Source: Chitinophagaceae bacterium
Lineage (GTDB): Bacteria > Bacteroidota > Bacteroidia > Chitinophagales > Chitinophagaceae
Direction: 5' to 3'
Length of the DNA: 12,681 nt
Assembly (NCBI GenBank): GCA_009996555.1
Contig: JAACZX010000021.1
Coordinates: 1-12,681 of the forward strand
Shown one piece after another: positions 1-12,681 of the stretch. Numbering within the stretch: the first letter of the stretch is position 1; every line of letters starts with the position of its first letter. Below the pieces are notes generated by a model. That model was given only the letters and a program-made list of their open reading frames with translations. It did no database searches and was not told the origin of the DNA. A program made the position numbers and the translations under genes.

Positions 1-2796
1 ATTATTGTAAAAGGTGTAAACGGTGCGCCTGTTTACCTTAAGGATATTGCAAGCATTAAAGACACCGTTAAGGAAAAAGAAAGCTTTGCCCGTTTAGATG
101 GTAAGAATGTAATTACGCTCAATATTATTAAACGCAGTGGCGAAAACCTCATCAGTGCAGCAGATAATGTAAAAGCTTCGGTAGAAGAAATGCAGAAGAA
201 TGACATCTTACCGAAAGACTTAAAAATAACATTCACCGGCGACCAGAGTAAGCAAACCAAAACATCGTTTAACGAATTGGTGAACACTATTGTGATTGGT
301 TTTATTTTGGTGTTACTCATTCTGATGTTCTTCATGGGTGTTACCAATGCCTTCTTTGTTGCATTGAGTGTGCCGCTGAGTGTGTTTGTGGCCTTCCTGT
401 TTTTACCGGTGGCTGATTACATTGTTGGTACAGGTGTAACGCTCAACTTTATTGTATTGTTTGCATTACTGTTTGGCCTGGGTATTATTGTGGATGATGC
501 GATTGTGGTAATTGAAAATACACACCGTATATATCATAACGGTCGTGTGCCAGTAATACGCAGTGCAAAAGAAGCTGCAGGCGAAGTGTTTATTCCGGTG
601 CTGGCAGGTACTGCCACAACACTGGCACCATTCTTCCCGCTGCTGTTCTGGAAAGGTATCATTGGTAAGTTTATGATTTATCTGCCGGTGATGCTCATCT
701 TAACACTGGCAGCGTCATTGATTGTTGCGTTTATCATGAACCCCGTGTTTGCAGTAAGCTTCATGAAACCCGAAGGTCGTGAACACGACGAACGGAAAAG
801 TGCCATCTTCCGTAAATGGCATTGGTGGGCTTTCTGGATCATTGGTATCATTAATCATGTAATTGGTAACCACGGTACCGGCAACTTCCTGTTCTTTATG
901 GCACTGGCGGGTGTGCTTAACCGTTATGTGCTGCGTGATACCATCTATTTCTTCCAGGAACGTATTCTACCCGGTTTAATGAACCGTTACGAAAAACTCC
1001 TGCGTTGGATATTGAAAGGAACAAGACCGGCATGGGCATTGGTATCGCTGTTCCTGTTGTTCCCGATCTCTGTTGCATTACTGCTGGCAAGAGGTAACTC
1101 TTCTACCTTCTTCCCAAGCGGCGATCCCAACTTCATCTATGTGTATTTGAAATTACCTGTTGGTACAGATGTTAAGTATACCGATTCAGTAACAACATTG
1201 CTGGAGAAGAAAGTGTACAAAATTCTGGAGAAAGAAAAACCAGGTGAAGAAGGTTCAATTGTTGAAAGTATTATTACCAACGTGGCGGTAAGTGCAAACA
1301 ACCCACGTGATAATAACCGCAGTACACAAGCTAATCTTGGACGTATACAGGTATCGTTTGTGGAATACGAAAAACGTCATGGCAAATCAACCAAGTTATA
1401 TATTGACGAAATACGCCGCAGCATTAAAGGAATACCCGGTGCCGCTATCAGTGTAGAACAGGAAGATGGTGGTCCGCCCACAGACCCTCCCGTGAACATT
1501 GAAGTAGTTGGTGACAACTTCAACAATATTGCGAAGGTTGCAACAGAATTGTACAACTATCTCGATACAAACCATGTAGAAGGTATTGATAACCTGCAGC
1601 TCGATGTTGACTTAAACAATCCGGAAATTACTGTGCATGTTGATCGTGAGCGTGCATTGATTGAAGGTGTAAGTACAGCACAGGTAGGTATGGAATTACG
1701 TACAGCCTTGTTTGGTAAAGAAGTGAGCAAGCTGAAAGAAGGTGAAGATGAATACAAAATTCAGTTGCGCTACAGCGAACTTGAACGTAACAACATTGGC
1801 GACCTGATGAATATGAAGATCACGTTCCGTGATTTTAACACCGGCCAGATCAAGCAGGTGCCCATCAACGCTATTGCAAGCTTCGATTATACCAGCAGCA
1901 GCGGTGGTGTAAAAAGAAAAAACATGAAGCGAACCATTCAGCTGCAATCGAACATTGCTGATCCTACACAGGCAGCAGCAATTAATGCGCAACTGAAAAC
2001 AAAGATCGACGACTTTAAAAATAAAGTACGTATTCCTGAAGATGTAACCATCCGCCAGAGCGGACAAAGTGAACAGGAAGCAGAAACCAATGCGTTTCTT
2101 GGTACTGCATTGGTGATTGCAATCGGGTTAATCTTCCTGATACTTGTATTACAGTTTAACAGCTTAAGTAAACCATTCATTGTAATTACCGAAATCTTCT
2201 TCAGCATTATTGGTGTATTGTTGGGTTATGCATTAACCGGTAAAACAATTGCTACCATCATGTTGGGTGTAGGTGTGATTGGTTTGGCTGGTATTGTGAT
2301 CAAGAACGGCATCCTCTTGATTGAGTTTACCGATGAGTTGCGCCAGCGTGGTTACAAAACACGTGAAGCAGCTATCCAGGCAGGTAAGATCAGAATCATT
2401 CCTGTATTGCTTACAGCATTGGCAACCATGCTTGGTTTGTTACCGCTGGCTGTTGGTTTCAACATTGATTTTGTATCGTTCTTCCAGCATCTTAATCCAA
2501 AGATCTTCTTTGGTGGTGACAGTGTAGTGTTCTGGGGACCATTGAGCTGGACGATCATTTATGGTTTGATCTTCGCTTTCTTCTTAACATTGATCATGGT
2601 GCCAAGTATGTACATCATTTCTGAACGTTTAAGAAGACCAATGGAACAATTCTACGGTACGAAATACATAGCGTTACTTGGTTTCCTCGGTCCGTTCTTC
2701 TTCATCTTTGTAGGTATTATGTACCTCGGAAGAGCAATACAAGGAAAGAAAGTATGGCTTGGTAAGCAACGTAAAACTGTTCCTGCTAAAATATAA
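1..2796 (+). CDS. RND efflux permease (AcrB/HAE1-like), 5'-truncated by window edge
   Basis: Inner-membrane proton-driven pump subunit that normally works with a periplasmic adaptor and an outer-membrane channel. The frame is open from base 1, so the ATG at 190 is an internal methionine; 931 residues are visible and the N-terminal porter region is missing. Numbering from the first codon in the window: TM helices near 95-120 and 150-175, the proton-relay motif GIIVDDAIVVIEN with Asp165-Asp166, TM7 near 342-364, a second porter domain, and the second-half relay Lys768 in GLAGIVIKNGILLIEF. These match AcrB Asp407/Asp408/Lys940, so the pump should be proton-coupled. Oddities are two extra hydrophobic stretches (about 274-288 and 295-311) between TM6 and TM7, and another after TM12 (about 889-911). 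Substrate (drug or metal) cannot be assigned. A terminator follows directly, so this is probably the last gene of an efflux operon. Confidence 0.93.
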   Translation: MIVKGVNGAPVYLKDIASIKDTVKEKESFARLDGKNVITLNIIKRSGENLISAADNVKASVEEMQKNDILPKDLKITFTGDQSKQTKTSFNELVNTIVIGFILVLLILMFFMGVTNAFFVALSVPLSVFVAFLFLPVADYIVGTGVTLNFIVLFALLFGLGIIVDDAIVVIENTHRIYHNGRVPVIRSAKEAAGEVFIPVLAGTATTLAPFFPLLFWKGIIGKFMIYLPVMLILTLAASLIVAFIMNPVFAVSFMKPEGREHDERKSAIFRKWHWWAFWIIGIINHVIGNHGTGNFLFFMALAGVLNRYVLRDTIYFFQERILPGLMNRYEKLLRWILKGTRPAWALVSLFLLFPISVALLLARGNSSTFFPSGDPNFIYVYLKLPVGTDVKYTDSVTTLLEKKVYKILEKEKPGEEGSIVESIITNVAVSANNPRDNNRSTQANLGRIQVSFVEYEKRHGKSTKLYIDEIRRSIKGIPGAAISVEQEDGGPPTDPPVNIEVVGDNFNNIAKVATELYNYLDTNHVEGIDNLQLDVDLNNPEITVHVDRERALIEGVSTAQVGMELRTALFGKEVSKLKEGEDEYKIQLRYSELERNNIGDLMNMKITFRDFNTGQIKQVPINAIASFDYTSSSGGVKRKNMKRTIQLQSNIADPTQAAAINAQLKTKIDDFKNKVRIPEDVTIRQSGQSEQEAETNAFLGTALVIAIGLIFLILVLQFNSLSKPFIVITEIFFSIIGVLLGYALTGKTIATIMLGVGVIGLAGIVIKNGILLIEFTDELRQRGYKTREAAIQAGKIRIIPVLLTALATMLGLLPLAVGFNIDFVSFFQHLNPKIFFGGDSVVFWGPLSWTIIYGLIFAFFLTLIMVPSMYIISERLRRPMEQFYGTKYIALLGFLGPFFFIFVGIMYLGRAIQGKKVWLGKQRKTVPAKI

Positions 2797-2817
2797 TTGA
2801 TAGCATCACCTGCTAAC

Positions 2818-2845
2818 AAAACCCTCTCAAAACCGAGAGGGTTTT
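2818..2845 (+). terminator. Intrinsic terminator of the RND gene
   Basis: The arms ACCCTCTC (2821-2828) and GAGAGGGT (2835-2842) form a perfect 8-bp stem with loop AAAACC. It is extended by AAA/TTT pairs and followed by a T-rich tail (2842-2851). It lies 22 nt after the RND stop codon. Confidence 0.9.
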
Positions 2846-2854
2846 TCTTTTGCG

Positions 2855-2884
2855 TTTAACAAAATAATTCAACGGCTATATTCG
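2855..2884 (+). promoter_or_regulatory. Possible Bacteroidota-type promoter for the AIM24 gene
   Basis: TATATTCG at 2877-2884 matches five of six fixed positions of the Bacteroidota -7 element TAnnTTTG. TTTA at 2855-2858 is a weak -33 match, with an 18-nt spacer. The position is sensible: after the RND terminator and about 33 nt before the ATG. Both elements are imperfect, so this is tentative. Confidence 0.35.
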
Positions 2885-2917
2885 TCTTAAAAGTAATTTC
2901 ACAAAAAAATTATCATC

Positions 2918-3712
2918 ATGGCACAGGCACACGAAATTGATTACCGTATTGTAGGTGAAGAAATGCAGTACGTAGAAATTGAACTTGATCCCAACGAAAC
3001 AGCTGTAGCTGAAGCGGGCAGTTTTATGTTGATGGATGAAGGCGTACAAATGCAAACTATTTTTGGCGATGGCAGCGCCAATGCACCAACCGGTGTATTA
3101 GGAAAATTGTTCAGCGCAGGTAAACGTTTGCTCACCGGCGAAAGTTTATTTATGACGGCGTATACCAATGTTGCACATGGTAAGAAGCGTGTGAGTTTTG
3201 CATCGCCTTATCCCGGCAAAATCATTCCGCTCGATCTGCTGCGCTTAGGTGGTCCTGTTGTTTGCCAGAAAGATGCCTTTCTCTGTGCAGCAAAAGGAGT
3301 AAGCGTTGGTATTGCACTGCAACGCAAACTCGGTACCGGTTTATTTGGTGGCGAAGGTTTTATTATGCAGAAACTGGAAGGTGATGGAATGGCGTTTGTG
3401 CATGCAGGCGGTCATGTGTTTGAGCGTGAACTGCAGCCCGGCGAATTAGTAAAGATCGATACAGGTTGCGTTGTTGCTTACACACACACGATTGATTTTG
3501 ACATACAGTTTGTAGGCGGTATTAAGAACAGCATTTTTGGTGGCGAAGGCTTATTCTTTGCAACACTACGTGGCCCCGGCAAAGTATGGATCCAAACGTT
3601 ACCTATATCACGTTTAGCAAGCCGCATTCTTTCGTATGGCACAACCAACCGTAAAGAAGAAGGAAGCCTGTTGGGAGGTTTGGGTAATTTGCTGGATGGT
3701 GATGGAAGATAA
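2918..3712 (+). CDS. TIGR00266 / AIM24-family protein
   Basis: This 264-residue protein belongs by overall sequence to the AIM24 family (TIGR00266). The family has a tandem beta-sandwich fold; its bacterial function is unknown, and the yeast namesake is a mitochondrial inner-membrane protein. Supporting features are the N-terminal pattern around residues 10-40 ([22 protein letters not shown]), glycine-rich segments such as [17 protein letters not shown] and [17 protein letters not shown], and a full-length C-terminus with a glycine/leucine tail ([14 protein letters not shown]). There is no signal peptide or membrane helix, so it is probably cytoplasmic or peripheral. The start at 2918 is the first ATG after the upstream terminator and gives the expected family length. 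It sits alone between two terminators and so is a monocistronic unit. The family call is solid; no reaction can be assigned. Confidence 0.9.
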
Positions 3713-3807
3713 AGTAACTCCTGATACTTGTCAAACTGACGCAGGATAGATATTTTCAACATCGGCCCTAAAGCCAGGCAGATCTACCGTATCTCAGGAT
3801 AACAAAA

Positions 3808-3841
3808 AACAAAAGCCGGAAAAGTTTTTCCGGCTTTTGTT
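3808..3841 (+). terminator. Intrinsic terminator after the AIM24 gene
   Basis: A perfect 16-bp inverted repeat is formed by AACAAAAGCCGGAAAA (3808-3823) and its complement at 3826-3841. The GC core is flanked by A and T runs on both sides, so it could act in both directions. It lies about 95 nt after the AIM24 stop. Its 3' arm runs straight into the -33 element of the arsR promoter. Confidence 0.88.
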
Positions 3842-3872
3842 TGGAAATTAAAAATCTTCCATCGTATATTTG
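3840..3872 (+). promoter_or_regulatory. arsR operon promoter (TTTG-21-TAnnTTTG)
   Basis: TTTG (3840-3843) and TATATTTG (3865-3872) match the Bacteroidota sigma factor consensus TTTG / TAnnTTTG exactly, with a 21-nt spacer. Transcription would start near 3878-3880, leaving a leader of about 67 nt before the arsR ATG. The -7 element lies inside a dyad (3861-3876) likely to be an ArsR operator. Confidence 0.75.
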
Positions 3873-3876
3873 CGAT
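3861..3876 (+). promoter_or_regulatory. Putative ArsR operator 1, over the -7 element
   Basis: ATCGTATATTTGCGAT has ATCG/CGAT arms around the -7 core TATATTTG. It shares 11 of 16 positions, including ATCGTA...CGAT, with the dyad at 3923-3938. Repressor bound here would cover the promoter directly. The operator role is inferred from position and recurrence. Confidence 0.5.
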
Positions 3877-3883
3877 ATAAGTT

Positions 3884-3907
3884 AAAAGACGATACAGTTC
3901 GTCTTTT
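3884..3907 (+). promoter_or_regulatory. Inverted repeat 2 in the arsR leader
   Basis: A perfect 9-bp inverted repeat is formed by AAAAGACGA (3884-3892) and TCGTCTTTT (3899-3907) around TACAGT. It starts a few bases after the predicted transcription start and contains the same ACGAT pentamer as the flanking dyads. It may be an operator or an RNA hairpin in the leader. Confidence 0.45.
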
Positions 3908-3922
3908 TCTTTCACCTGATTC

Positions 3923-3938
3923 ATCGTAAAAAAACGAT
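3923..3938 (+). promoter_or_regulatory. Putative ArsR operator 3, next to the start codon
   Basis: ATCGT (3923-3927) and ACGAT (3934-3938) flank A6, giving a 16-bp dyad of the same length and arms as the one at 3861-3876. It ends 7 nt before the arsR ATG, in the region that must also be free for ribosome binding. Confidence 0.45.
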
Positions 3939-3945
3939 AATAAAA

Positions 3946-4278
3946 ATGGCGGTTCATAAAAAAGAAGAGTTTAGTGTAAAAGAGCAAAACCTGGCTGCAT
4001 TTGCAAAAGCAATCAGCCACCCGGCACGTATTGCCATTTTAAGTGTGTTGGCAAAACGCAACCAATGCATCTGCGGCGAAATTGTAGAAGTGTTGCCATT
4101 GGCGCAAAGCACGGTTAGTCAGCATTTGAAAGAATTAAAAAATGCTGGACTCATAGACGGTGAAACCGACGGCCCCCGCAGCTGCTACTGCATTAACTGG
4201 AAAGCATTCGAAAAATTTAATACCGACTTCAATTCGCTTTTTGAAAAACTGAAAGAAGCGAATGCTAAGTGCTGTTAA
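3946..4278 (+). CDS. arsR: ArsR/SmtB-family metalloregulator of the ars operon
   Basis: This is a 110-residue winged-helix repressor, usual family length. The recognition helix region [19 protein letters not shown] spans residues 52-70, preceded by [12 protein letters not shown] (24-35), a hallmark of the family. Candidate As(III) ligands are Cys41 and Cys43 in the CIC motif at the start of the helix before the recognition helix (the ArsR CxC position), Cys80 and Cys82 in the wing, and a terminal Cys109-Cys110 pair. In known ArsR proteins, As(III) binding to cysteine thiolates releases DNA. It is first in an operon with arsM, 32 nt upstream, and CGAT-centred dyads lie in its own promoter and leader, so autorepression is likely. 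The ATG at 3946 gives the expected N-terminus. The specific metalloid is inferred from arsM and the CxC motif. Confidence 0.92.
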
Positions 4279-4310
4279 TCATTCAACCTTCATCATTTAA
4301 AACAAACAAC

Positions 4311-5147
4311 ATGACAAACGACTTGCAACTGAAAGAAATTGTAAAGCAGAAGTACAGTGAAATTGCTATGCAGGACAAGGAAACCAATCAATCATCATGC
4401 TGCGGTGCTGGTGGCTGTTCTACAGAAGTATATAATATTATGAGTGATGATTATGCCAATTTGAAAGGTTACAACCCCGATGCTGATCTTGGTTTAGGCT
4501 GTGGTTTACCAACACAGTTTGCAAAAATAAAACCGGGCGATACGGTGATTGATCTGGGCAGCGGTGCGGGTAATGATTGCTTTGTTGCAAGAGCTGAAGT
4601 TGGTGCAAACGGCAAAGTGATTGGTATTGATTTTACACCTGCCATGATCGACAAAGCAAGAGCCAATGCAGAAAAGCTCGGCTTTAATAATGTGGAGTTT
4701 CGCCAAGGCGATATTGAACACATGCCTGTTACAGCAAACACTGCAGATGTAATTGTAAGTAACTGTGTGCTGAATCTTGTACCCAATAAAGACGGTGTGT
4801 TTAAAGAAATGTTGCGTGTGCTGAAAGCAGGTGGACACTTCAGTATATCAGATGTGGTGTTAGTTGGAGCATTACCTGATGCCCTACGTAAAGATGCAGA
4901 AATGTATGCTGGCTGTGTGGCAGGTGCCATTCAGAAAGAAGTATACCTGGAACTGATTGCACAAAACGGTTTTACCAATATCACTGTTCAAAAAGAAAAA
5001 GCAATTGTAATACCTGATGATATTTTGAGCAACTACTTAAATGCAGAGCAACTGGCCTCGTTTAAAAATGGAACAACCGGTATTTTCTCCATCACAGTGT
5101 ATGCACAAAAGCCTGCTTGTTGTGCACCCGGCAGCGGTTGCTGTTAA
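4311..5147 (+). CDS. arsM: Arsenite S-adenosylmethionine methyltransferase
   Basis: This enzyme converts As(III) to methylated arsenicals using S-adenosylmethionine. The 278-residue protein has the SAM motif DLGSGAGND (81-89) and the acidic residue of the next strand in IGIDFTP (104-110). The three family cysteines are Cys64 (GLGCGLP), Cys152 (SNCVLNLVP) and Cys202 (YAGCVAGA), matching the arsenic-binding cysteines of characterised ArsM enzymes. An N-terminal SSCCGAGGC cluster (Cys30, 31, 36) occupies the place of the fourth conserved cysteine. The C-terminus ends in CCAPGSGCC, adding four more cysteines. I chose the ATG at 4311: an in-frame ATG at 4269 would overlap arsR and add an atypical [10 protein letters not shown] extension. 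It lies 32 nt after arsR and is co-transcribed with it. Confidence 0.95.
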   Translation: MTNDLQLKEIVKQKYSEIAMQDKETNQSSCCGAGGCSTEVYNIMSDDYANLKGYNPDADLGLGCGLPTQFAKIKPGDTVIDLGSGAGNDCFVARAEVGANGKVIGIDFTPAMIDKARANAEKLGFNNVEFRQGDIEHMPVTANTADVIVSNCVLNLVPNKDGVFKEMLRVLKAGGHFSISDVVLVGALPDALRKDAEMYAGCVAGAIQKEVYLELIAQNGFTNITVQKEKAIVIPDDILSNYLNAEQLASFKNGTTGIFSITVYAQKPACCAPGSGCC

Positions 5148-5177
5148 TTCTTTTTTTCACATATAAACCTTAGCGTC

Positions 5178-5228
5178 ATGAACACAAATCAAAATGATCC
5201 CGGCTGCTGCGGCGGCGGATGTTGTTAA
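5178..5228 (+). CDS. Cys-rich 16-residue micro-ORF at the end of the ars operon
   Basis: An ATG at 5178 opens a 16-codon frame ending TAA at 5226-5228, encoding MNTNQNDPGCCGGGCC. It starts 30 nt after the arsM stop and ends 4 nt before the stem of the operon terminator, so it lies inside the arsR-arsM transcript. The peptide has a polar N-terminal half and a CCGGGCC tail, so 4 of 16 residues are cysteine. It resembles both the N-terminal CCGAGGC cluster and the CCAPGSGCC tail of ArsM. I do not recognise a named family. A soft-metal or As(III)-binding peptide is a reasonable inference, and a degenerate copy of the arsM 3' end is an alternative. Translation is unproven and there is no clear ribosome-binding site, as is common in Bacteroidota. 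Confidence 0.55.
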   Translation: MNTNQNDPGCCGGGCC

Positions 5229-5232
5229 AAAC

Positions 5233-5261
5233 AAAACGGAGCGCCTGCAGTGCTCCGTTTT
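5233..5261. terminator. Bidirectional terminator between the ars operon and the SDR gene
   Basis: The 10-bp arms AAAACGGAGC (5233-5242) and GCTCCGTTTT (5252-5261) surround a 9-nt loop. The right side supplies a T-run for the + strand. The left flank AAAAACAAAA gives a U-rich tail on the - strand. It lies between convergent genes and probably ends both transcripts. Confidence 0.88.
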
Positions 5262-5283
5262 CAATTGATATCATTTGCAAAAA

Positions 5284-6054
5284 CTAAAAAGTAGATCGTA
5301 CTGCTCCCCCATCAACCATTATTGTTTGCCCGGTAACAAACCCACTTTGCTTACTCAATAACCACACAGCAAGTGCTGCAAATTCATCCGGGTTACCAAG
5401 CCTTCCAACAGGTATTTGCTGTATGGCTGACTGCTTTACTTCATCAAACGGCAAACCTGTCTGCTCACTTTTTTTATGATATAACCTGTCAACTGCAGGT
5501 GTATTATGGCTACCGGGGCCAAGTATATTCAACGTAACACCACTCTTTGCAATTTCCTGGCTTAATGTTTTTACAAATCCAACAACTGCTAACCGAAGCG
5601 ATGTACTTAACACCAAATTTTCAATCGGTTGTTTTACACTTGAACTTTCGATGTACACAATGCGGCCATAACCTGCATTGATCATTTCAGGAACAAAAGC
5701 CTGTGTTAATTCTACTTTCCAGCGAAGCAGTTTTGTATAAGCATCATCCCAATCTGTTAATGTAGTTTCCAATACAGTTTTAGCAGGCGGGCCTCCTGCG
5801 TTCACTAATATGCCATGCAATGATCTGCCTGCAACACTCTGCTTTAATTGTTCAATGGTGAATGATTGTGTAATATCACCAACCACCACTTCAGCGTTGC
5901 GGTGTGCATCGTATAATTCATGTAACTGCTCCCTGCCTCTTGCCACTGCAATTACTGCGGCACCTTCTTCAAGCAGTTTTTTTGCTACAGCTTGTCCAAA
6001 ACCACTGGTAGCTCCTCCTACAATAAAAAGCTGATCTGTTAATTCAAGATTCAT
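5284..6054 (-). CDS. SDR-fold oxidoreductase-like protein lacking the catalytic Tyr-Lys
   Basis: This 256-residue protein has the short-chain dehydrogenase/reductase fold. Visible elements are the nucleotide-binding loop GGATSGFG (13-20, a variant of TGxxxGxG), VNAGG (84-88), the serine strand YIESSS (134-139) and the C-terminal VTGQTIMVDGG (240-250). The active-site YxxxK is absent: the segment reads LVLSTSLRLAVVG, with Ser150 and Arg154 at the expected Tyr and Lys positions. This fits the known 'beta-ketoacyl-ACP reductase-like' subgroup of SDRs that lacks the canonical tetrad, whose substrates are unknown. Without Tyr/Lys, classical carbonyl reduction is doubtful, so I would not call it fabG. 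It lies 37 nt downstream of the NTF2-like gene on the same strand and is likely co-transcribed with it. Confidence 0.88.
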   Translation of the reverse strand: MNLELTDQLFIVGGATSGFGQAVAKKLLEEGAAVIAVARGREQLHELYDAHRNAEVVVGDITQSFTIEQLKQSVAGRSLHGILVNAGGPPAKTVLETTLTDWDDAYTKLLRWKVELTQAFVPEMINAGYGRIVYIESSSVKQPIENLVLSTSLRLAVVGFVKTLSQEIAKSGVTLNILGPGSHNTPAVDRLYHKKSEQTGLPFDEVKQSAIQQIPVGRLGNPDEFAALAVWLLSKQSGFVTGQTIMVDGGAVRSTF

Positions 6055-6091
6055 AGTATAATTGTTTCAAACTTTATGTTACTGCAGTTCA

Positions 6092-6532
6092 TTAAGGCAT
6101 CCTGTTTGCATGGCGGCTTACCAGCAACCATCCGTTCTGCCGTTTTGCATACACTTTGGTATAAAGCAATGATACATCAAGCGGCTTACCATCCATGATG
6201 ATGCTGAAAATGCCTTTACCATTTACAATTACAAAACCCTTGTACACTCTTGCCTGCGCTTCACTTACTACGATCTTAGTCATGGTAAGCTTTCCTGAAC
6301 GGATATCTTCAATCACTTCTTTTTTATTTTCCACCCATCCGTTTGAATGAATATACTGCAAACGTTCATCAAGAATATTTGCAAGTGAATCAAGTCGCTT
6401 GTTCACCATCCAACGGAATTTTGTTTCATGCAGCCTCAGCACAAATTTTTCCGTTGCCGATTCTTCTTTTGTTTTTTGTGCCGTTGCAGCGCTTGCTGCT
6501 GTTAACAGCAGCAAGAAAAGAAAATGTTTCAT
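6092..6532 (-). CDS. Secreted NTF2-like (DUF4440/SnoaL-type) protein
   Basis: This is a 146-residue protein with a clear signal peptide: Lys2, a hydrophobic core FLFLLLLTAASAA and a likely cleavage site after about residue 19 (TAQ). The mature part looks like a small alpha+beta cone of the NTF2 superfamily. An N-terminal helix (about 28-58, KRLDSLANILDERLQYIHSNG) is followed by VENKKEVIEDIRSGKL (about 67-82) and strands ending in LYTKVYAKRQNGWLLVSRHANR, typical of DUF4440 proteins. Such proteins include enzymes and ligand-binding proteins, and no activity can be assigned here. Its product should be periplasmic, unlike that of the SDR gene downstream. It begins about 30 nt beyond the adk terminator stem; I could not identify its own promoter. 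Confidence 0.82.
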   Translation of the reverse strand: MKHFLFLLLLTAASAATAQKTKEESATEKFVLRLHETKFRWMVNKRLDSLANILDERLQYIHSNGWVENKKEVIEDIRSGKLTMTKIVVSEAQARVYKGFVIVNGKGIFSIIMDGKPLDVSLLYTKVYAKRQNGWLLVSRHANRMP

Positions 6533-6552
6533 GTAGTGAAGTTAATGAGAAG

Positions 6553-6583
6553 AAAACAAAAAAGCCCTTCGCAAGCGAAGGGC
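6553..6583 (-). terminator. Intrinsic terminator of adk
   Basis: The perfect 9-bp stem GCCCTTCGC (6564-6572) / GCGAAGGGC (6575-6583) is followed on the minus strand by TTTTTTGTTTTCTT (complement of about 6550-6563). It lies 23 nt after the adk stop codon. Confidence 0.92.
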
Positions 6584-6606
6584 CGTATCTATTTAATGAA
6601 TAAGCT

Positions 6607-7188
6607 TTACGCTTCCATGTATGCTTCGATCTCTTTTTGCAGCGCTTCAAAAATTTCATCGATGCTGCCTTCGCCTTTCACTTCAGCAAACTTATCGAAC
6701 TGCTTATAGTATTCGGCAACCACAGAAGTTTTGTTACGGTACTCTGTAATGCGTGCACGGATCACTTCTTCATTGGTATCATCGCTGCGTCCGCTGGTTA
6801 AACCACGGTTAAGCAAACGTTTTACCAACTCTTCTTCTGTTACCAGTAAAGCGATCATGGCAGAAATTTCAGTGCCCTTCAGCTTCAGCAATTTATCCAA
6901 TGCTTCTGCCTGCGCTACTGTGCGTGGAAACCCATCAAACAAAAAGCCTTTTGCCTGCGGGTTGGCATCAAGTGCTGAACTGATCATACCAATCACTACT
7001 TCATCGGGCACCAGCTGACCTTTATCCATCAGCTTTTTCGCCTCCAGTCCAAGCGGTGTTTGCCCGGCAATTTCGCTGCGGAGCAAATCGCCCGTACTCA
7101 AATGCTTCAGACTATATTTTGCAATTAGTTTTTCTGACTGGGTTCCTTTACCGCTGCCCGGAGGGCCAAATAAAATCAAATTAAACAT
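6607..7188 (-). CDS. adk: Adenylate kinase (short-LID type)
   Basis: This enzyme catalyses ATP + AMP to 2 ADP in the cytoplasm and is essential for adenylate balance. The 193-residue protein has the P-loop GPPGSGKGT (8-16), the AMP-binding region HLSTGDLLR (29-37), the signature FLFDGFPRT (82-90) and the LID arginines in NRGLTSGRSDDT (127-138). The LID is the short form: there is no roughly 30-residue insertion and no four-cysteine zinc site, which explains the length of 193 rather than about 214. The C-terminus is an ordinary helix. It is monocistronic by appearance, with a promoter candidate upstream (7215-7248) and a strong terminator downstream. Confidence 0.97.
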   Translation of the reverse strand: MFNLILFGPPGSGKGTQSEKLIAKYSLKHLSTGDLLRSEIAGQTPLGLEAKKLMDKGQLVPDEVVIGMISSALDANPQAKGFLFDGFPRTVAQAEALDKLLKLKGTEISAMIALLVTEEELVKRLLNRGLTSGRSDDTNEEVIRARITEYRNKTSVVAEYYKQFDKFAEVKGEGSIDEIFEALQKEIEAYMEA

Positions 7189-7214
7189 AATGTAGTTCTG
7201 TCTTGATGAAGTTG

Positions 7215-7248
7215 TAAATATAGTCAGCCTCGTTTAAAAAATCTCCAA
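7215..7248 (-). promoter_or_regulatory. Candidate adk promoter
   Basis: On the minus strand, TATATTTA (7222 down to 7215) matches five of six fixed positions of TAnnTTTG. A TTG (7248-7246) lies 23 nt upstream, within the spacing range reported for Flavobacteriia-type promoters. The leader would be about 20 nt. This is moderate evidence only. Confidence 0.4.
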
Positions 7249-7315
7249 TCTCAACCTTTTTTGCATGCAATTTGTATAATAAAAGAGTTGTTAAGATAAA
7301 AACAACGTCGTTTAA

Positions 7316-7329
7316 CTGACATCCGTCAG
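7316..7329. repeat. Short dyad in the adk-msrB divergent region
   Basis: CTGAC (7316-7320) and GTCAG (7325-7329) form a 14-bp dyad about 35 nt before the msrB start. TACTTTTA (7344-7351), a weak -7-like element on the + strand, lies just downstream. A regulator site is possible, but arms of 5 bp can occur by chance. Confidence 0.3.
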
Positions 7330-7363
7330 CTCCTGTCCTTTCGTACTTTTAGCAAATAAAGCA

Positions 7364-7933
7364 ATGATCATGAAGCAACTACTGATAATGTTGACGCTAA
7401 TGCAACTTACATTTGTTAGCTGTGAAGGACAAACAGCTACCCCAAAAGAAAAAAAGAATACTATGAGCGAAACAAAGAAAAATCCGGTTTATTCTAAAAG
7501 CGATTCGTCGAAAGTAAACCTGAGTGAAGAAGAATGGAAAAAGATCCTGCCCTCTGATGTGTATTATATTGCAAGGCAAAAAGGTACGGAACGTCCCTGG
7601 ACAAGCAAGTTTGAAAAATTTGATGAAGTGGGCACTTATTTCTGTGCAGCCTGCGGCAACGCTTTGTTCAAAAGCGATACAAAGTTTGAAAGCGGTTGTG
7701 GCTGGCCCAGCTTTTATGAGCCCATCAGCAAAGGATCGATCATTTACACTCCCGATAACAGCCACGGTATGCAACGTACCGAAGTACAATGCGGCAGGTG
7801 CAAAGCACATTTAGGGCATGTGTTTGAAGATGGTCCGCCGCCAACAGGCTTACGTTACTGTATTAACGGCGTTATCCTAGATTTTGAAAAAGCAAAAGAA
7901 ACCGAGAAGAAGTATAACGAAAATAAAGGTTAA
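7364..7933 (+). CDS. msrB: Peptide-methionine (R)-S-oxide reductase, predicted lipoprotein
   Basis: This enzyme reduces methionine-R-sulfoxide in oxidised proteins. The 189-residue protein has an MsrB domain at about 52-178. Zinc is held by two CxxC pairs, Cys94/Cys97 (FCAACGNALF) and Cys143/Cys146 (CGRCKAHLGHVF). The catalytic cysteine is Cys166 in GLRYCINGV. Cys112 in GCGWPSF lies where many MsrBs carry the recycling cysteine. The N-terminus is a lipoprotein signal with Cys20 in LTFVSC followed by a flexible Lys/Thr linker, so the enzyme probably sits on a membrane in the envelope. After the catalytic Cys the sequence is ING rather than the common (I/V)NS. The ATG at 7370 (two codons later, MKQLLIML) is an equally plausible start. 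It is a single gene with its own terminator. Confidence 0.95.
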   Translation: MIMKQLLIMLTLMQLTFVSCEGQTATPKEKKNTMSETKKNPVYSKSDSSKVNLSEEEWKKILPSDVYYIARQKGTERPWTSKFEKFDEVGTYFCAACGNALFKSDTKFESGCGWPSFYEPISKGSIIYTPDNSHGMQRTEVQCGRCKAHLGHVFEDGPPPTGLRYCINGVILDFEKAKETEKKYNENKG

Positions 7934-7953
7934 CAAGACGAACATTTTCATTT

Positions 7954-7995
7954 AAAACCCAAAGGCGAATCAATAACGATTCGCCTTTGGGTTTT
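7954..7995. terminator. Strong terminator between convergent msrB and the DUF2721 gene
   Basis: A perfect 17-bp inverted repeat joins 7954-7970 (AAAACCCAAAGGCGAAT) and 7979-7995 around an 8-nt loop. A TTTTT run follows on the + strand, and the AAAA at the left end gives a U-run on the - strand. It probably serves msrB mainly and may also end the DUF2721 transcript. Confidence 0.92.
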
Positions 7996-8065
7996 TATAA
8001 ATAAGTAGGATCAATGATCATTATCCAGTAATGTTTTGAAAAGGTTAGGCCGGCTTATTTCCATA

Positions 8066-8446
8066 TCACTTAATTCCATCAATTGCCTTAGTGCTGAGGA
8101 TGATCTCGATCAATGAAAAAACAAGCGATGTAACCAGGCTCAGCAAGCTTAATGCAAATACCCATTTGGCAGCTGAATCATACTCACGGAAAATAAGAAA
8201 CATACAGATTACACAAAGTAAAAAACTTAAAATGCCCAATGCCTGCATATTCCTGATGTAACTGATCCTTACACGCAGGTTAGTGATCTGTTTATGCAGT
8301 TGCACCTGCTGCTCTCCTTTCACATATTCATCGTGCAGTTTACGCACCAATGCAGCAATGGCAAGAAAACGATTGGTATAAGCCAGCATTAACAATGTAA
8401 TGGCAGGGAACAACAGTGCGGGTGTGGTTATGGATAATGCATTCAT
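8066..8446 (-). CDS. DUF2721 family membrane protein
   Basis: This 126-residue protein matches the DUF2721 pattern: an N-terminal TPALLFPAITLLMLAYTNRF followed by LAIAALVRKLHDEY. It has three predicted membrane helices (about 8-32, 67-87 and 92-118). A charged helical segment lies at 36-66, rich in Gln, His and Arg, and probably coiled. There is no signal peptide cleavage site and there are no catalytic motifs. The function of the family is unknown. It stands alone, convergent with msrB. Its start lies only 26 nt from the terminator palindrome of the gene behind it, so its promoter must overlap that palindrome or it is expressed by readthrough. The family call comes from recognition of the N-terminal motif. 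Confidence 0.8.
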   Translation of the reverse strand: MNALSITTPALLFPAITLLMLAYTNRFLAIAALVRKLHDEYVKGEQQVQLHKQITNLRVRISYIRNMQALGILSFLLCVICMFLIFREYDSAAKWVFALSLLSLVTSLVFSLIEIILSTKAIDGIK

Positions 8447-8471
8447 AACTTAAAAGTAATCAAACAAAAGA

Positions 8472-8495
8472 AAAGCTGCAGAATTCTGCAGCTTT
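8472..8495 (-). terminator. Perfect palindrome, terminator of the receptor-lipoprotein unit
   Basis: A 24-bp perfect palindrome is formed by AAAGCTGCAG (8472-8481), AATT and CTGCAGCTTT (8486-8495). On the minus strand it is followed by TCTTTTGTTTG. It lies about 33 nt after the lipoprotein stop and 26 nt before the DUF2721 start codon. Confidence 0.82.
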
Positions 8496-8527
8496 CTTCA
8501 ATTCTATTTTTAAAACAACCAAAAAAG

Positions 8528-9079
8528 TTATTGTATCACTACAGGCATATCTACTTCTACATCTGTTTCGCCTTTTGTTACCAGATCGCCTGCAGCTTTT
8601 ACACCCGGCTTATGCTTCAGTGTAATTTTTAATGTACCTGTACTTGCTGCTGCTGTAGTAAACGATGCAGTAGTGCCCAACGGTAAACCATTACCATCTG
8701 TATTAAAGCCAGCTACGGTTAAGTTTGCACCACCGCTTACCGCATAATACACCTGATGATCGGTGCCTTCGGTTACTACTTCAGGAGTAATATCTTCGGC
8801 AGGTGTTACACTTTCGTTCAAAAACTGTACAGAACAATTATAAATTTTTGAAGGAGCAAGTGTAATTGTTTGAATAACCGGTGCATTACCGCCCACGCCA
8901 TCAACATCTTTCCAGGAATAAACCAATGCACTGCCGCCACCTACCGGTGTTAAGGTGAGTTTTACAGTAGTGATCAGCTCTTCTTCGTTTTCTTCTCCTG
9001 TGTTTTTCTTTTTGCAGCCAGCCAGGATCAGCCCACCCAACATTACCACTGCAACTAATTTCATGTGCTTCATTTTCAT
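8528..9079 (-). CDS. Small lipoprotein paired with the TonB receptor
   Basis: This 183-residue protein has a lipoprotein signal: lysines 2, 4 and 7, a hydrophobic core and the lipobox LILAGC with Cys22. An acidic linker (GEENEEEL, about 28-35) follows, then a beta-rich domain with Thr/Val strands (TTVKLTLTPVGG, SVQFLNES, GTLKITLKHKPG). The end DVEVDMPVVIQ is typical of an immunoglobulin-like or transthyretin-like sandwich. Proteins of this size and ending are, to my recollection, often encoded next to TonB receptors in Bacteroidota and annotated 'type 1 periplasmic binding fold superfamily'; that name should be treated as a label rather than a function. It starts 24 nt after the receptor stop, so it is translated from the same mRNA and is probably an accessory ligand-binding lipoprotein at the cell surface or in the periplasm. 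Starts at Met1, 3 or 6 are all possible. Confidence 0.82.
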   Translation of the reverse strand: MKMKHMKLVAVVMLGGLILAGCKKKNTGEENEEELITTVKLTLTPVGGGSALVYSWKDVDGVGGNAPVIQTITLAPSKIYNCSVQFLNESVTPAEDITPEVVTEGTDHQVYYAVSGGANLTVAGFNTDGNGLPLGTTASFTTAAASTGTLKITLKHKPGVKAAGDLVTKGETDVEVDMPVVIQ

Positions 9080-9103
9080 AAATTTTGATTTAGTGTTTGC
9101 TTT

Positions 9104-11458
9104 TTACGATTTATGCTTGTGCTTCAGTTCAAATGGAATGCGCACACGTAACGAAATATTTCTTCCCATTTCATCGCTGAAATAACGGAACGAATTCATG
9201 TAATCCCTGTATGCTTTATTCATAAGATTGGTTACTGATAAAATAAAGCTCACATTGTTATGTTTCCATTTCAGCTTTGTTCCTGCTTCAATACCAATTA
9301 ACAAATAAGCCGGTGGAGGATTGAGGTAATCAGATTGTTTTACTGTGGTACCGGGCACTTCAATGTTACCTGTTGATGGCACACGTGTTTGCTGCAAAAC
9401 CCATGTACTGTTGATACCGAAATAAGTATCATTCAACTTGCGTGCATTGCCCAAACTATATTCAACAGCTGCTTCATATCGATCGGCAGGCATTTGAATA
9501 AGCCACTGCTTATTTGTTTTATCCCAAGCCCGCAACAATGATGCCTTAACGGTTGAGCTGAAATGTGCATCAAAATTATACGCAGCAGAAAAATCAAATC
9601 CACTCAGCCTTGCATTGGTTTGTGTATAACGAAAGGCAGGAAATGCACCACGAATAGTTAACTCCGGAGGAAATGTTGGTTCAAGAAAAATAAATCCGTT
9701 GATCTCTTTATGATATACACCTGCATCAATATCCCAGTTTGTATTGTTGAAAACAATATTCAATGCAAGATTATTTGCACGCTCCGGTTGCAACGCTGCA
9801 TTCCCTTTTTCAATACGTGCTGCACCATGGTGCAAACCATCGGCATACAATTCATTTACCTGTGGTGCCCGCCATGCAGTAGATGCATTGAACAACAAGC
9901 GTAATGCCGTAGTAAAACGGTAAGTGAAACCAATGTTGCCGGAAATGTTATTGAATACACGATCAGGATAATCCCGCACATTACCATTATCGCTGGTATT
10001 GTAAATAGATTTCCGGTCGAACCGAACGCCTGCTTCCAGATCAAGTTTATTCTTTGTCCATTTTTCAATTGCAAAAATGCCTGCATTGGTTGATTGATAA
10101 TTGGGAATAAACAACCTGCGTTCGTAGCTGTTGTTCTGGTACATAAATGAACCGCCAATGGTACCACGAAAATCGCCTGTGTTAAAATGATCCCATACCA
10201 ACTCGGTTAAACCTGTTGCAATACTAAGATCAAGCTGCGGTGCATTGCTGCTGCTGGCAAAACGTTTCTGATCATACTCCTGCCTGTTATTATACTGGCC
10301 CGATACAACAAGATTTAAACGGCCGATATTACCTGTGTTTTTCCAGGCTTTCAGTTTCAGTAACTGGTGTTGAATATCCTGGTAAGGTCTGTCGATATTG
10401 TAAGAGAACGCAACGTTCTTAATATAGTCCGGAGGATCTTTTGCAAGAATTGCATTCCACAGGTCGGTTACATTACCAATATGCGAACCTGCAAATATGC
10501 CCAGCTTTGTATTGAACTGCGAATAGAATATTTCTGCTCCACGGTCTTGTTTCTTCCATCCTGCAGCTGCAGAAAAATTATATTCTTCGTTAGCCGAATT
10601 AGCTAACCAGTAACCTGGCGTGCGTGCATAACCACCACGTTTTACAGTGCCTTGCACACGCCAGCTGAATGCAGGCTTTTTTGCACTGTTACCTTCAAGC
10701 ATAGCCGATAATACACCCATCCTGTTATTGCTGAAAAGTGCAGTGTTTACCTCTCCTCCTATGCCCGGATCATGACGTAACAATTTGGGTTCAACCAACA
10801 CCACACCTGCAATTGCATCGGCACCATAACGTATAGCAGATGCCCCTTTAATTACTGAAATACGATTGGCAATGAAAGGATCAATTTCAGGCGCATGTTC
10901 ATTTCCCCACTGCTGGCCTTCCTGCCGTACACCATTGTTGAGGATGAGTACACGGTTACTGTGCAACCCATGAATTACGGGTTTGTAAATATTAGAACCT
11001 GTTTGTAACACACTCACCCCACTTACTTTTTTAATGGATTCTGCAAGGCTCAGTCCCCTGGTAGATTCAAGTGCTTTTCCTTTTATTTCAGATGCTGCAT
11101 TATTTGTTGTTTTGCCCTGCACCACCACTTCCTGCAACTCGGTAACTGCATGCGACAGATCAATATCTGTTTCAAGATCGGTTTTGAGATGAATATGTTT
11201 TTCGGAAGTAATACAACCGGCATGCGATACAATCAATGTGTACACGCCTGAACAAAGACCTTTAAACGAGTAAAAGCCATCTTTATCCGTTGTTTGCATC
11301 AGCTTCAGTTCACGGATCAATACCACTGCATCAGCTAAATGCTCTTTGGTATCGGCATCGTTAACATGACCAGTGAGTGCAAGCGTACACTGAGCAGCGA
11401 CCGTGTTCAGAAAAAGAAGAAACAACAGCAAAAAGGCGGTTCTGATAATTTGAAACAT
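9104..11458 (-). CDS. TonB-dependent outer-membrane receptor with CarboxypepD_reg-like domain
   Basis: This is an outer-membrane active transporter powered by TonB-ExbBD. Starting at 11458 it has 784 residues. A signal peptide spans 1-23 (core AFLLLFLLFL, end VAAQ) and a CarboxypepD_reg-like domain about 27-100 (LTGHVNDADTKEHLADAVV, DKDGFYSFKGLCSGVYTLIV). The plug lies at about 115-225 (KPVIHGLHSNRVLILNNGV, ISVIKGASAIRYGADAIAGVV), and a 22-strand-type barrel runs to the C-terminus. The barrel end shows the expected LTNLMNKAYRDYMNSF box and a terminal aromatic/hydrophobic strand, followed by ELKHKHKS. A start 27 nt further upstream (11485) would add MKLCCKFAT, a poor signal-peptide N-region, so I reject it. 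A Cys triplet (24, 69, 82) lies in the N-terminal domain. The substrate is not evident. The gene is co-transcribed with the lipoprotein gene and probably controlled through the palindrome over its start codon. Confidence 0.93.
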   Translation of the reverse strand: MFQIIRTAFLLLFLLFLNTVAAQCTLALTGHVNDADTKEHLADAVVLIRELKLMQTTDKDGFYSFKGLCSGVYTLIVSHAGCITSEKHIHLKTDLETDIDLSHAVTELQEVVVQGKTTNNAASEIKGKALESTRGLSLAESIKKVSGVSVLQTGSNIYKPVIHGLHSNRVLILNNGVRQEGQQWGNEHAPEIDPFIANRISVIKGASAIRYGADAIAGVVLVEPKLLRHDPGIGGEVNTALFSNNRMGVLSAMLEGNSAKKPAFSWRVQGTVKRGGYARTPGYWLANSANEEYNFSAAAGWKKQDRGAEIFYSQFNTKLGIFAGSHIGNVTDLWNAILAKDPPDYIKNVAFSYNIDRPYQDIQHQLLKLKAWKNTGNIGRLNLVVSGQYNNRQEYDQKRFASSSNAPQLDLSIATGLTELVWDHFNTGDFRGTIGGSFMYQNNSYERRLFIPNYQSTNAGIFAIEKWTKNKLDLEAGVRFDRKSIYNTSDNGNVRDYPDRVFNNISGNIGFTYRFTTALRLLFNASTAWRAPQVNELYADGLHHGAARIEKGNAALQPERANNLALNIVFNNTNWDIDAGVYHKEINGFIFLEPTFPPELTIRGAFPAFRYTQTNARLSGFDFSAAYNFDAHFSSTVKASLLRAWDKTNKQWLIQMPADRYEAAVEYSLGNARKLNDTYFGINSTWVLQQTRVPSTGNIEVPGTTVKQSDYLNPPPAYLLIGIEAGTKLKWKHNNVSFILSVTNLMNKAYRDYMNSFRYFSDEMGRNISLRVRIPFELKHKHKS

Positions 11459-11488
11459 CGTTGCAAATTTGCAACAAAGTTTCAAATT
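11447..11488. promoter_or_regulatory. 42-bp near-perfect palindrome over the receptor start codon
   Basis: The centre is the perfect 16-bp palindrome GTTGCAAATTTGCAAC (11460-11475). It is flanked, 3 bp out on each side, by the arms AATTTGAAAC (11447-11456) and GTTTCAAATT (11479-11488). In all, 19 of 21 base pairs across the dyad match. The receptor ATG (11458-11456) lies inside it. It resembles a nested operator for a dimeric repressor, for instance a Fur-superfamily metal sensor, but it could also fold in the mRNA and hide the start codon. The regulator is not identified. Confidence 0.7.
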
Positions 11489-11514
11489 TCAAAAACTTTT
11501 TTCTTTCCGTTCAT

Positions 11515-11540
11515 AAAAAATCCCGCCATTTGGCGGGATT
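11515..11540 (-). terminator. Intrinsic terminator of the thiolase gene
   Basis: The perfect 9-bp stem AATCCCGCC (11519-11527) / GGCGGGATT (11532-11540) has a 4-nt loop and is followed on the minus strand by a T6 run (complement of 11515-11520). It lies about 30 nt after the thiolase stop. Confidence 0.92.
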
Positions 11541-11569
11541 ACTCTGCTTTATTACGACGAAAAAAGAAA

Positions 11570-12681
11570 CTAAGTTATGTTCTCAATTATACCTGCAATG
11601 CCCTGGCCACCACCAACGCACGCTGTTACAATACCATATTTTTTGCTGAGACGCTTCATATCGTTCGTAATCTGGATGGTGAGTTTAGCACCTGTGCAAC
11701 CTAATGGATGACCTAATGCAATTGCACCACCATTGATATTCACAATTTCCGGATTAAGATTCAACTGACGGATAACAGCCAATGCCTGCGATGCAAATGC
11801 TTCATTCAGTTCTATCAGATCAATATCATTTAAACTCATGTTGGCCTGTTTCAGTACTTTGGGTACTGCTTCCACAGGGCCAATACCCATAATGCGTGGA
11901 TGCACACCTGCTGAAGCACAGTTTACCAAACGGGCAATTGGTTTTAAACCCAGCTGATTCACCAAACGTTCACTCATCACCAATACAAAGGCAGCACCAT
12001 CGCTTGTTTGCGATGAATTACCGGCTGTAACCGTTCCATTCACGGCAAAAGCAGGTTTCAGCTTTGCCAGCGATTCTACATTGGTATCAGCACGCACACC
12101 TTCATCGGTATCAACTATATAATTTCTTGTTTGCTTTTTGCCTTTTTCATTGAGGTAAACTTCTTCAACCGTGATCGGCAAAATGCCCGGTTTAAAATAA
12201 CCATTCTCAATGGCCGCTTTTGCTTTCATGTGGCTGTTGAAAGCAAACTGATCCTGGTCTTCACGACTTACATTGTATTCTTTGGCAACAGCCTCAGCGG
12301 TTAAGCCCATGCTCAAATAATAATCGGGTTCATCTTTGGCAATGGAATAAGCAGGTACTGTTTTCCAACCGGCAGTTGGTACAAGACTCATACTTTCTGT
12401 ACCGCCGGCAATAATACATTCGGCCATACCCATGCGGATCTTTGATGTAGCTATGGCAATTGTTTCCAATCCACTGGCGCAGTAACGGTTCACCGTCATA
12501 CCCGGTGCATGAAAACCAACTGCACGTGCTGCAATAATGCGGCCTACCTGTAAACCTTGTTCGGCCTCGGGCACAGCGTTCCCCACAATTACATCATCCA
12601 CCAGTTTGGGATCAAGTTGCGGTACACTGGCGAGCAACCCTTTGATCACATCAATCGCCAAATCATCGGGACGTGTAAAGC
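11570..12681 (-). CDS. Thiolase (acetyl-CoA C-acyltransferase), 5'-truncated by window edge
   Basis: This enzyme catalyses thiolytic cleavage of 3-ketoacyl-CoA, or the reverse condensation, in fatty-acid beta-oxidation. The frame is open to the right edge (FTRPDDLAID...), so the TTG at 12661 is not a real start; comparison with the Zoogloea enzyme suggests that roughly 20 residues are missing. Numbering from the first full codon in the window: the nucleophile Cys67 (VNRYCASGLET), NEAFASQ beginning at Asn292, His324 in GHPLGCTGA, and the second catalytic Cys354 in CVGGGQGIAGI. The His-to-Cys spacing of 30 residues agrees with biosynthetic and degradative thiolases. All four catalytic elements are intact, so the enzyme should be active. 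Degradative use (FadA/FadI type) is inferred from similarity; a fadB-like partner would be expected upstream, outside the window. It ends in its own terminator. Confidence 0.95.
   Translation of the reverse strand, partial: FTRPDDLAIDVIKGLLASVPQLDPKLVDDVIVGNAVPEAEQGLQVGRIIAARAVGFHAPGMTVNRYCASGLETIAIATSKIRMGMAECIIAGGTESMSLVPTAGWKTVPAYSIAKDEPDYYLSMGLTAEAVAKEYNVSREDQDQFAFNSHMKAKAAIENGYFKPGILPITVEEVYLNEKGKKQTRNYIVDTDEGVRADTNVESLAKLKPAFAVNGTVTAGNSSQTSDGAAFVLVMSERLVNQLGLKPIARLVNCASAGVHPRIMGIGPVEAVPKVLKQANMSLNDIDLIELNEAFASQALAVIRQLNLNPEIVNINGGAIALGHPLGCTGAKLTIQITNDMKRLSKKYGIVTACVGGGQGIAGIIENIT

Follow-up and report, generated by a model that had tools for sequence, protein, structure and literature searches.

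A conserved gene for a cysteine-rich microprotein in the ars operons of Chitinophagaceae, a candidate binder of trivalent arsenic

Vicinal thiols bind trivalent arsenicals. Among short, thiol-rich molecules, metallothioneins carry their cysteines as CxC, and phytochelatins are made by an enzyme. Arsenicibacter rosenii, whose arsenic resistance (ars) operon offers a close comparison, belongs to the same phylum as the Chitinophagaceae considered here. In the part of its description drawn on here, the arsRMC operon of A. rosenii is inducible by trivalent arsenic, As(III), and by trivalent methylarsenic, MAs(III), and encodes an ArsM together with an ArsR that has a C-terminal cysteine pair, single mutations in which did not lower sensing; As(III) is bound by three cysteines and MAs(III) by two (PMC11868830). 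That part of the paper mentions no peptide (PMC11868830). The chaperone site of the metallochaperone ArsD, an ars-operon protein of more than 100 residues, consists of Cys12, Cys13 and Cys18, and the R773 ArsD has the vicinal pairs Cys112-113 and Cys119-120, spaced by five residues (PMC4562236, in part). Here we describe a stretch of 12,681 nucleotides (nt) from a Chitinophagaceae bacterium (assembly GCA_009996555.1, contig JAACZX010000021.1, positions 1 to 12,681, forward strand), referred to below as the window, in which an ars operon ends with a very short open reading frame. Its coding nature is well supported, and its relatives indicate that it is a true gene, which encodes a cysteine-rich microprotein and forms part of Chitinophagaceae ars operons.

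The frame lies on the forward strand at 5178..5228, running from an ATG at 5178-5180 to a TAA at 5226-5228, and it translates to MNTNQNDPGCCGGGCC, a peptide of 16 residues with four cysteines in two CC pairs. The ATG follows the arsM stop codon (5145-5147) by 30 nt, and the peptide stop precedes a hairpin by 4 nt; the coordinates and translation given in a preliminary description of this DNA are thereby confirmed. The frame is more than chance, because it is kept in eight Lacibacter genomes, its variation falls in third codon positions, and genome-wide matches to it lie in ars operons.

The window genome belongs with the genus Lacibacter. Lacibacter luteus encodes a peptide identical to that of the window, and Lacibacter cauensis a close one (CCGSECC). 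A DNA-pattern search of 14 genomes of the genus gave nine matches within two mismatches, eight of them true peptide genes and one (G346) unrelated. The eight peptide-bearing genomes are exactly those with an ArsM that shares 87% or more identity with that of the window, and in all eight the peptide gene lies 3' of arsM and keeps its ATG, its TAA and the terminal CC. Four further genomes, with an ArsM of 69-79% identity, lack the peptide; ACR3 follows arsM in three of these, and an arsC-like frame, recognized by eye, does so in G397. The remaining two have no full ArsM. One-mismatch pattern matches that read NKNDPGCC (G000, G083, G258) were rejected as second copies, having no start codon and a different continuation, and those with two mismatches (G346, G213, G258) are not related either.

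The peptide is 16 residues long in three Lacibacter genomes (CCGGGCC twice, CCGSECC once), 25 in two and 27 in three, always in frame, and we infer that the short form of the window arose by loss of a middle stretch. Across the first 11 codons of the eight sequences, codon positions 1 and 2 have no variable site and position 3 has 5; four of these changes are silent and one replaces N with K, and the last three codons of the peptide are invariant. For comparison, ArsM in the same genomes varies at 47, 22 and 200 of 278 positions each. Third-position variation combined with frame-keeping insertions and deletions is expected of a coding sequence. The preliminary description had proposed looking for synonymous-site bias and had regarded a start codon, frame or cysteines not conserved in close relatives as evidence against a gene; the bias is present, and conservation is the opposite of that outcome.

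Beyond the genus, a profile of nine peptides was searched against 394 genomes of the family Chitinophagaceae. All 19 places found at E<=1e-3 adjoin an arsR or arsM homologue, four Lacibacter places among them having been assigned in a separate analysis. Ten of the 19 are neither in the profile nor in Lacibacter (G169, G158, G311, G004, G322, G260, G265, G050, G219, G167), although two of them, G169 and G265, come from a genus represented in the profile. The searches together added G215, G012, G248, G289, G343, G027, G220, G120 and the variant G086, all adjoining ars genes. The total, with G086 counted, is 28 of 394 genomes and 14 of 101 genera, a frequency that is a lower bound, and in all 28 the gene stands beside ars genes. 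The genus search contributed G395, and a further contig (L047) comes from a Chitinophagaceae metagenome-assembled genome. Of 10 stretches from a separate search, six hold a peptide gene, only that of L047 being new, and four (L048, L049, L053, L054) hold unrelated frames. Of the family-search places scoring weaker than 0.002, G012 and G248 proved to be real and L077, L079, L081, L082, L084, L085 and L086 did not; there is no ars gene close to L077 (0.0029).

This distribution bears on two other explanations. The peptide could serve another soft metal, such as Sb(III), Hg, Cu or Zn, and stand in ars operons for co-regulation only; cysteine-rich peptides do bind several soft metals, but with the gene beside ars genes in 28 of 28 member genomes we consider this improbable. 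Alternatively, the frame could be chance or a decayed remnant of the arsM 3' end, an idea already raised from its likeness to the ArsM tail CCAPGSGCC. The likeness is real, extending to the same CCx5CC or CCx3CC spacing. However, the frame and its cysteines persist across 14 genera, including loci at which arsM is missing or follows the peptide gene. This contradicts a remnant or chance frame, the least probable of the explanations weighed here.

Family members span 16-32 residues. Most relatives have 25-32 residues in the arrangement CCx5CC...CC with three or four CC pairs, and most of the longer ones hold six to eight cysteines. The original picture of a 16-residue cysteine peptide is sound but is refined: the window form is a short member of a mostly longer family. 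It nevertheless has every feature of that family, namely a length within this range, a CCx3-5CC motif, a terminal CC, a place in an ars operon and a hairpin after the stop. The 160 cysteine codons of 26 distinct genes are divided between TGC (104) and TGT (56). Eleven database proteins, including the query's own 57-residue frame, all contain MNTNQxDPGCC behind upstream extensions of varied length, so the ATG common to all of them is probably the true start.

Wider searches gave few additions. Among 396 genomes of the order, 28 had matches at E<=0.05, and G289, G343 and G027 were new peptide genes, the last found through a match to the neighboring ArsM tail; the other loci inspected proved to be tails of ArsM, a single N-terminal region of ArsM (L114), a tail like that of L140 (L102) and unrelated frames. 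Among 385 genomes of the class, family members included, five had matches at E<=0.01: the known member G004, three C-terminal tails (L140, L141, L142) belonging to 157-166-residue frames that neighbor an ArsR homologue, and an unrelated frame (L139). No stand-alone relative was found outside Chitinophagaceae with this short profile, which is of limited sensitivity and misses distant relatives. There was no Pfam match at E<=0.1 (three members) and no NCBIfam match at E<=10 (five proteins), the 16-residue window peptide being below the 20-residue minimum of both searches. Against solved structures, only weak granulin matches appeared (four sequences, best 0.0024), which were taken as chance cysteine spacing.

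The features of the window operon are as follows.
3946..4278, forward strand: arsR repressor gene, product C-terminus AKCC (family match, sequence)
4311..5147, forward strand: arsM, arsenite methyltransferase (NF008823, 369 bits against a cut-off of 263)
5118..5144, forward strand: ArsM C-terminal tail CCAPGSGCC, with the di-cysteine module of the peptide family (sequence)
5153..5177, forward strand: leader directly 5' of the peptide ATG (genus conservation)
5178..5228, forward strand: microprotein gene, MNTNQNDPGCCGGGCC, CCx3CC short form of the family (frame, codon pattern, relatives)
5233..5261, forward strand: terminator-like hairpin with a 12-bp stem and a 5-nt loop (folding)

After arsR, arsM, the peptide frame and the hairpin comes a 256-residue frame on the opposite strand. 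A partial gene for a resistance-nodulation-division (RND) efflux permease, truncated by the window start, occupies 1-2796, and the same permease cluster is found upstream of arsR in L132 and L138. The sequence TATATTTG at 3865-3872, upstream of arsR, resembles the Bacteroidota -7 promoter element. No Rfam family reached threshold in the window.

Across the family, the peptide gene occupies various places in the operon; most neighbor-gene labels come from BLAST clustering with one representative tested against protein families. It ends the operon in the window (arsR-arsM-peptide). Elsewhere the order is arsR-peptide-arsM (L121-L126), arsR-arsM-peptide-arsC (L130, L133, L134), arsM-peptide-ACR3-arsC (L127, L128, L129) or, in L132, arsR-arsM-peptide followed by two acetyltransferase-like frames and then arsC. 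L119 and L131 have arsR-peptide with no arsM among the neighboring frames; the best ArsM match in the genome of L131 (G322, 94% complete) is 6.9e-9, and in G004 ArsM lies ~190 kilobases (kb) from the peptide. In the two Lacibacter relatives L137 and L138, where the peptide gene again ends the operon, a PAP2-family gene (7178-8095 and 4880-5797), not in the window operon, separates arsR from arsM. A cluster first labeled ACR3 proved by family test to be a methionine aminotransferase, the true ACR3 being cluster c14. In L126 (6150-6981), a locus of G248, arsM is in two overlapping frames beside an intact peptide gene. Aquaporin-family genes occur in the peptide-bearing operons L119, L122 and L124, directly beside arsC in the first two.

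The window hairpin (5233-5261) has a folding energy of -17.8 kcal/mol and a z score of -6.06, better than 200 of 200 shuffles. A simple scanner run on the window gave no listing of it and few T residues lie beyond the stem, so it is termed terminator-like. A strong hairpin (z<=-2.5) lies 3' of the peptide stop in 24 of 26 distinct genes, compared with 0 of 58 stretches behind arsM; the 26 are regular-expression picks that missed G027, G220 and G086 and include several close relatives. The hairpin is present behind the peptide gene even at operon-internal positions, and its sequence varies freely between genes. On the 5' side, only 7 of the 25 positions before the ATG (5153-5177) vary among the eight Lacibacter genomes, and in other genera the gene likewise has an A/T-rich leader that resembles it (ATAAANAGTAAAGCC-like). 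This conserved leader may be a translation signal or an RNA element.

A conserved leader and a recurrent hairpin might also be read as the traces of a functional RNA, a 3' untranslated region or small RNA in which the frame is incidental. This is very improbable: the third-position changes in the first 11 codons, the frame-keeping insertions and deletions and the alternation of TGC and TGT across genera belong to a protein, and the hairpin sequences differ freely. The most serious rival, because of the hairpin, is a cis-acting leader peptide, at which arsenic-driven depletion of cysteine or other thiols would stall ribosomes on the cysteine codons and so govern read-through of the hairpin into downstream ars genes. 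As in known attenuator leader peptides, a tiny frame rich in one codon stands before a terminator-like hairpin, here in 24 of 26 genes and often upstream of arsM, arsC or ACR3; ars genes do follow peptide and hairpin in several other genera. In Lacibacter, however, no evident operon gene follows at any of the eight loci, and the peptide is still conserved as a protein. There the closest large frame beyond the peptide gene, of 147 or 256 residues, is on the opposite strand at all eight loci, and some loci also list short same-strand frames (73-111 residues). No pairing of the hairpin arm with leader plus frame stood out clearly: 3 of 24 cases reached <=0.05 against shuffles (~1 expected), with a mean fraction of 0.29, more than the hairpin arm having been taken for two of the 24 (L099, L009). 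Attenuation as the explanation is judged unlikely, and a dual role, as peptide and attenuator, is possible in other genera.

The likeness to ArsM deserves closer attention. The gap between the first two CC pairs, scored in 24 distinct peptides, is five residues in 21, three in two and eight in one. A set of 51 distinct putative ArsM tails, at least one of which is not from ArsM, includes 42 with two CC pairs, spaced by five residues in 28 and by three in 14, with no other value, and the peptide profile itself picks up ArsM tails. The peptide and the ArsM tail may share an origin. The CCx5CC tail is wider than ArsM and the peptides. In L155 (1081-1554) a DUF6428 protein (Pfam), encoded directly behind arsR, ends in SCCTPDSGCC. 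Similar cysteine tails end similar-sized frames outside the family (L140, L141, L142, L102), likened by size and tail; three stand beside an ArsR homologue, and that of L142 has a single cysteine in front instead of a CC pair.

The peptide might accordingly be a dedicated partner of ArsM, a free copy of its tail that delivers As(III) to the enzyme or takes MAs(III) from it. The shared CCx5CC or CCx3CC module fits this, as does the position of the gene directly before or behind arsM at most loci, and the module makes exchange with ArsM plausible. On the other hand, the peptide occurs in operons without arsM (L119, L131, with the G322 match and the distant ArsM of G004 described above), so exchange with ArsM cannot be its whole role and the peptide is not simply a part of ArsM. 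Conversely, the peptide gene was not found at 22 of 23 ArsM loci of other genera (L010-L032), with ~1.5 kb searched on each side. A role confined to ArsM, and with it the earlier suggestion of a donor or acceptor as the sole function, is rather unlikely; as one role among others it is plausible. For the small signal molecule also suggested earlier no support was seen, although no test aimed at it was made.

We consider it fairly probable, judging from sequence and gene context, that the peptide is synthesized on ribosomes and uses its thiols to bind As(III) and MAs(III), buffering them and passing them to ArsM or other acceptors. Thiolate binding by its cysteine pairs, as first proposed, remains the natural reading of a coding frame with conserved pairs in an ars operon. 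In such a scheme the peptide would be co-transcribed with arsR and arsM under ArsR control, and the hairpin directly after its stop would set a discrete 3' end, giving a plentiful short message even inside an operon. The product, with no hydrophobic stretch, is probably cytosolic. Its vicinal pairs would bind trivalent arsenic, As(III) through three thiols and MAs(III) through two, which would lower free arsenic in the cell. The arsenic could then be transferred to efflux or to thiol acceptors, among them ArsM, which has a CCx5CC tail to match. Two to four CC pairs, an ArsR operon and a 3' hairpin of its own fit a stoichiometric buffer and shuttle.

Several observations weigh against this proposal. 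The window form has only two cysteine pairs; G027, G012 and G220 lack the first CC pair, and the relative G086 starts with TTG and has lost its last pair to a TGA (L148). Two of the 26 peptide genes have no strong hairpin. Where further genes follow, the conservation of the leader and the recurrence of the hairpin would suit cis-regulation as well. A glutathione-surrogate role was considered and rejected: PF04262 was unmatched in three of three Lacibacter genomes but PF04107 (GCS2) was matched in all three, and with a GCS2-type ligase present a lack of small thiols is unsupported. Finally, other genera hold the peptide beside ACR3 (L123, L125, L127, L128 and L129 by clustering, L127 also family-tested), so it is no general substitute for efflux.

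Within Lacibacter, ACR3, the only pump searched for, is present in two of eight genomes with the peptide and in six of six without; it was not found in the window genome (92.9% complete) or in five of the seven other peptide-bearing genomes. The split gives a one-sided Fisher value of 0.009 (28/3003), although the genomes are related and the test is not independent. A bolder reading is that the ars operon encodes its own sequestration, the thiol peptide capturing As(III) and MAs(III) and feeding a methyltransferase with a like tail, and that in most peptide-bearing Lacibacter methylation and binding replace the missing ACR3. We advance this only tentatively, at somewhat less than even chances.

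The peptide can be compared with several described systems. It shares with the C-terminal tail of Chitinophagaceae ArsM a CCx5CC or CCx3CC at the C-terminus and the same operon, but is free-standing, often has a third or fourth CC pair and occurs without arsM. With ArsD, compared by spacing alone, it shares vicinal pairs, five residues apart in most of the peptides, and a place in ars operons; unlike ArsD, the peptides have only 16-32 residues and no such chaperone site. Like metallothioneins and phytochelatins it is short, thiol-rich and high in cysteine, with thiolate capture predicted, but the members scanned match no Pfam or NCBIfam model, its pairs are CC, and it is gene-encoded. The peptide may work like a metallothionein or a metallochaperone, yet it has the sequence features of neither family.

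The family is apparently undescribed. Among the literature matches listed, by titles and abstract openings and with subscription papers mostly outside the scope, there was no cysteine microprotein of an ars operon, and according to the abstract of a 2025 paper the ars operon is not known to contain a gene specific to intracellular sequestration (PMC12093948). Genes of 16-32 codons lie at or below the usual limits of gene calling. In A. rosenii the C-terminal pair of ArsR is dispensable for sensing, going by the part of that work cited above, so such tails could have some other use; the occurrence of CC tails on ArsM, ArsR and DUF6428-type proteins together with the free peptides suggests that they form one thiol relay. 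Few resistance operons have been studied as well as ars operons, and a conserved peptide gene of this size would supply such a sequestration component. Its presence could account for the handling of As(III) and MAs(III) by operons that consist of arsR and arsM alone, and the peptide itself is a minimal, easily synthesized candidate for an arsenic-binding peptide.
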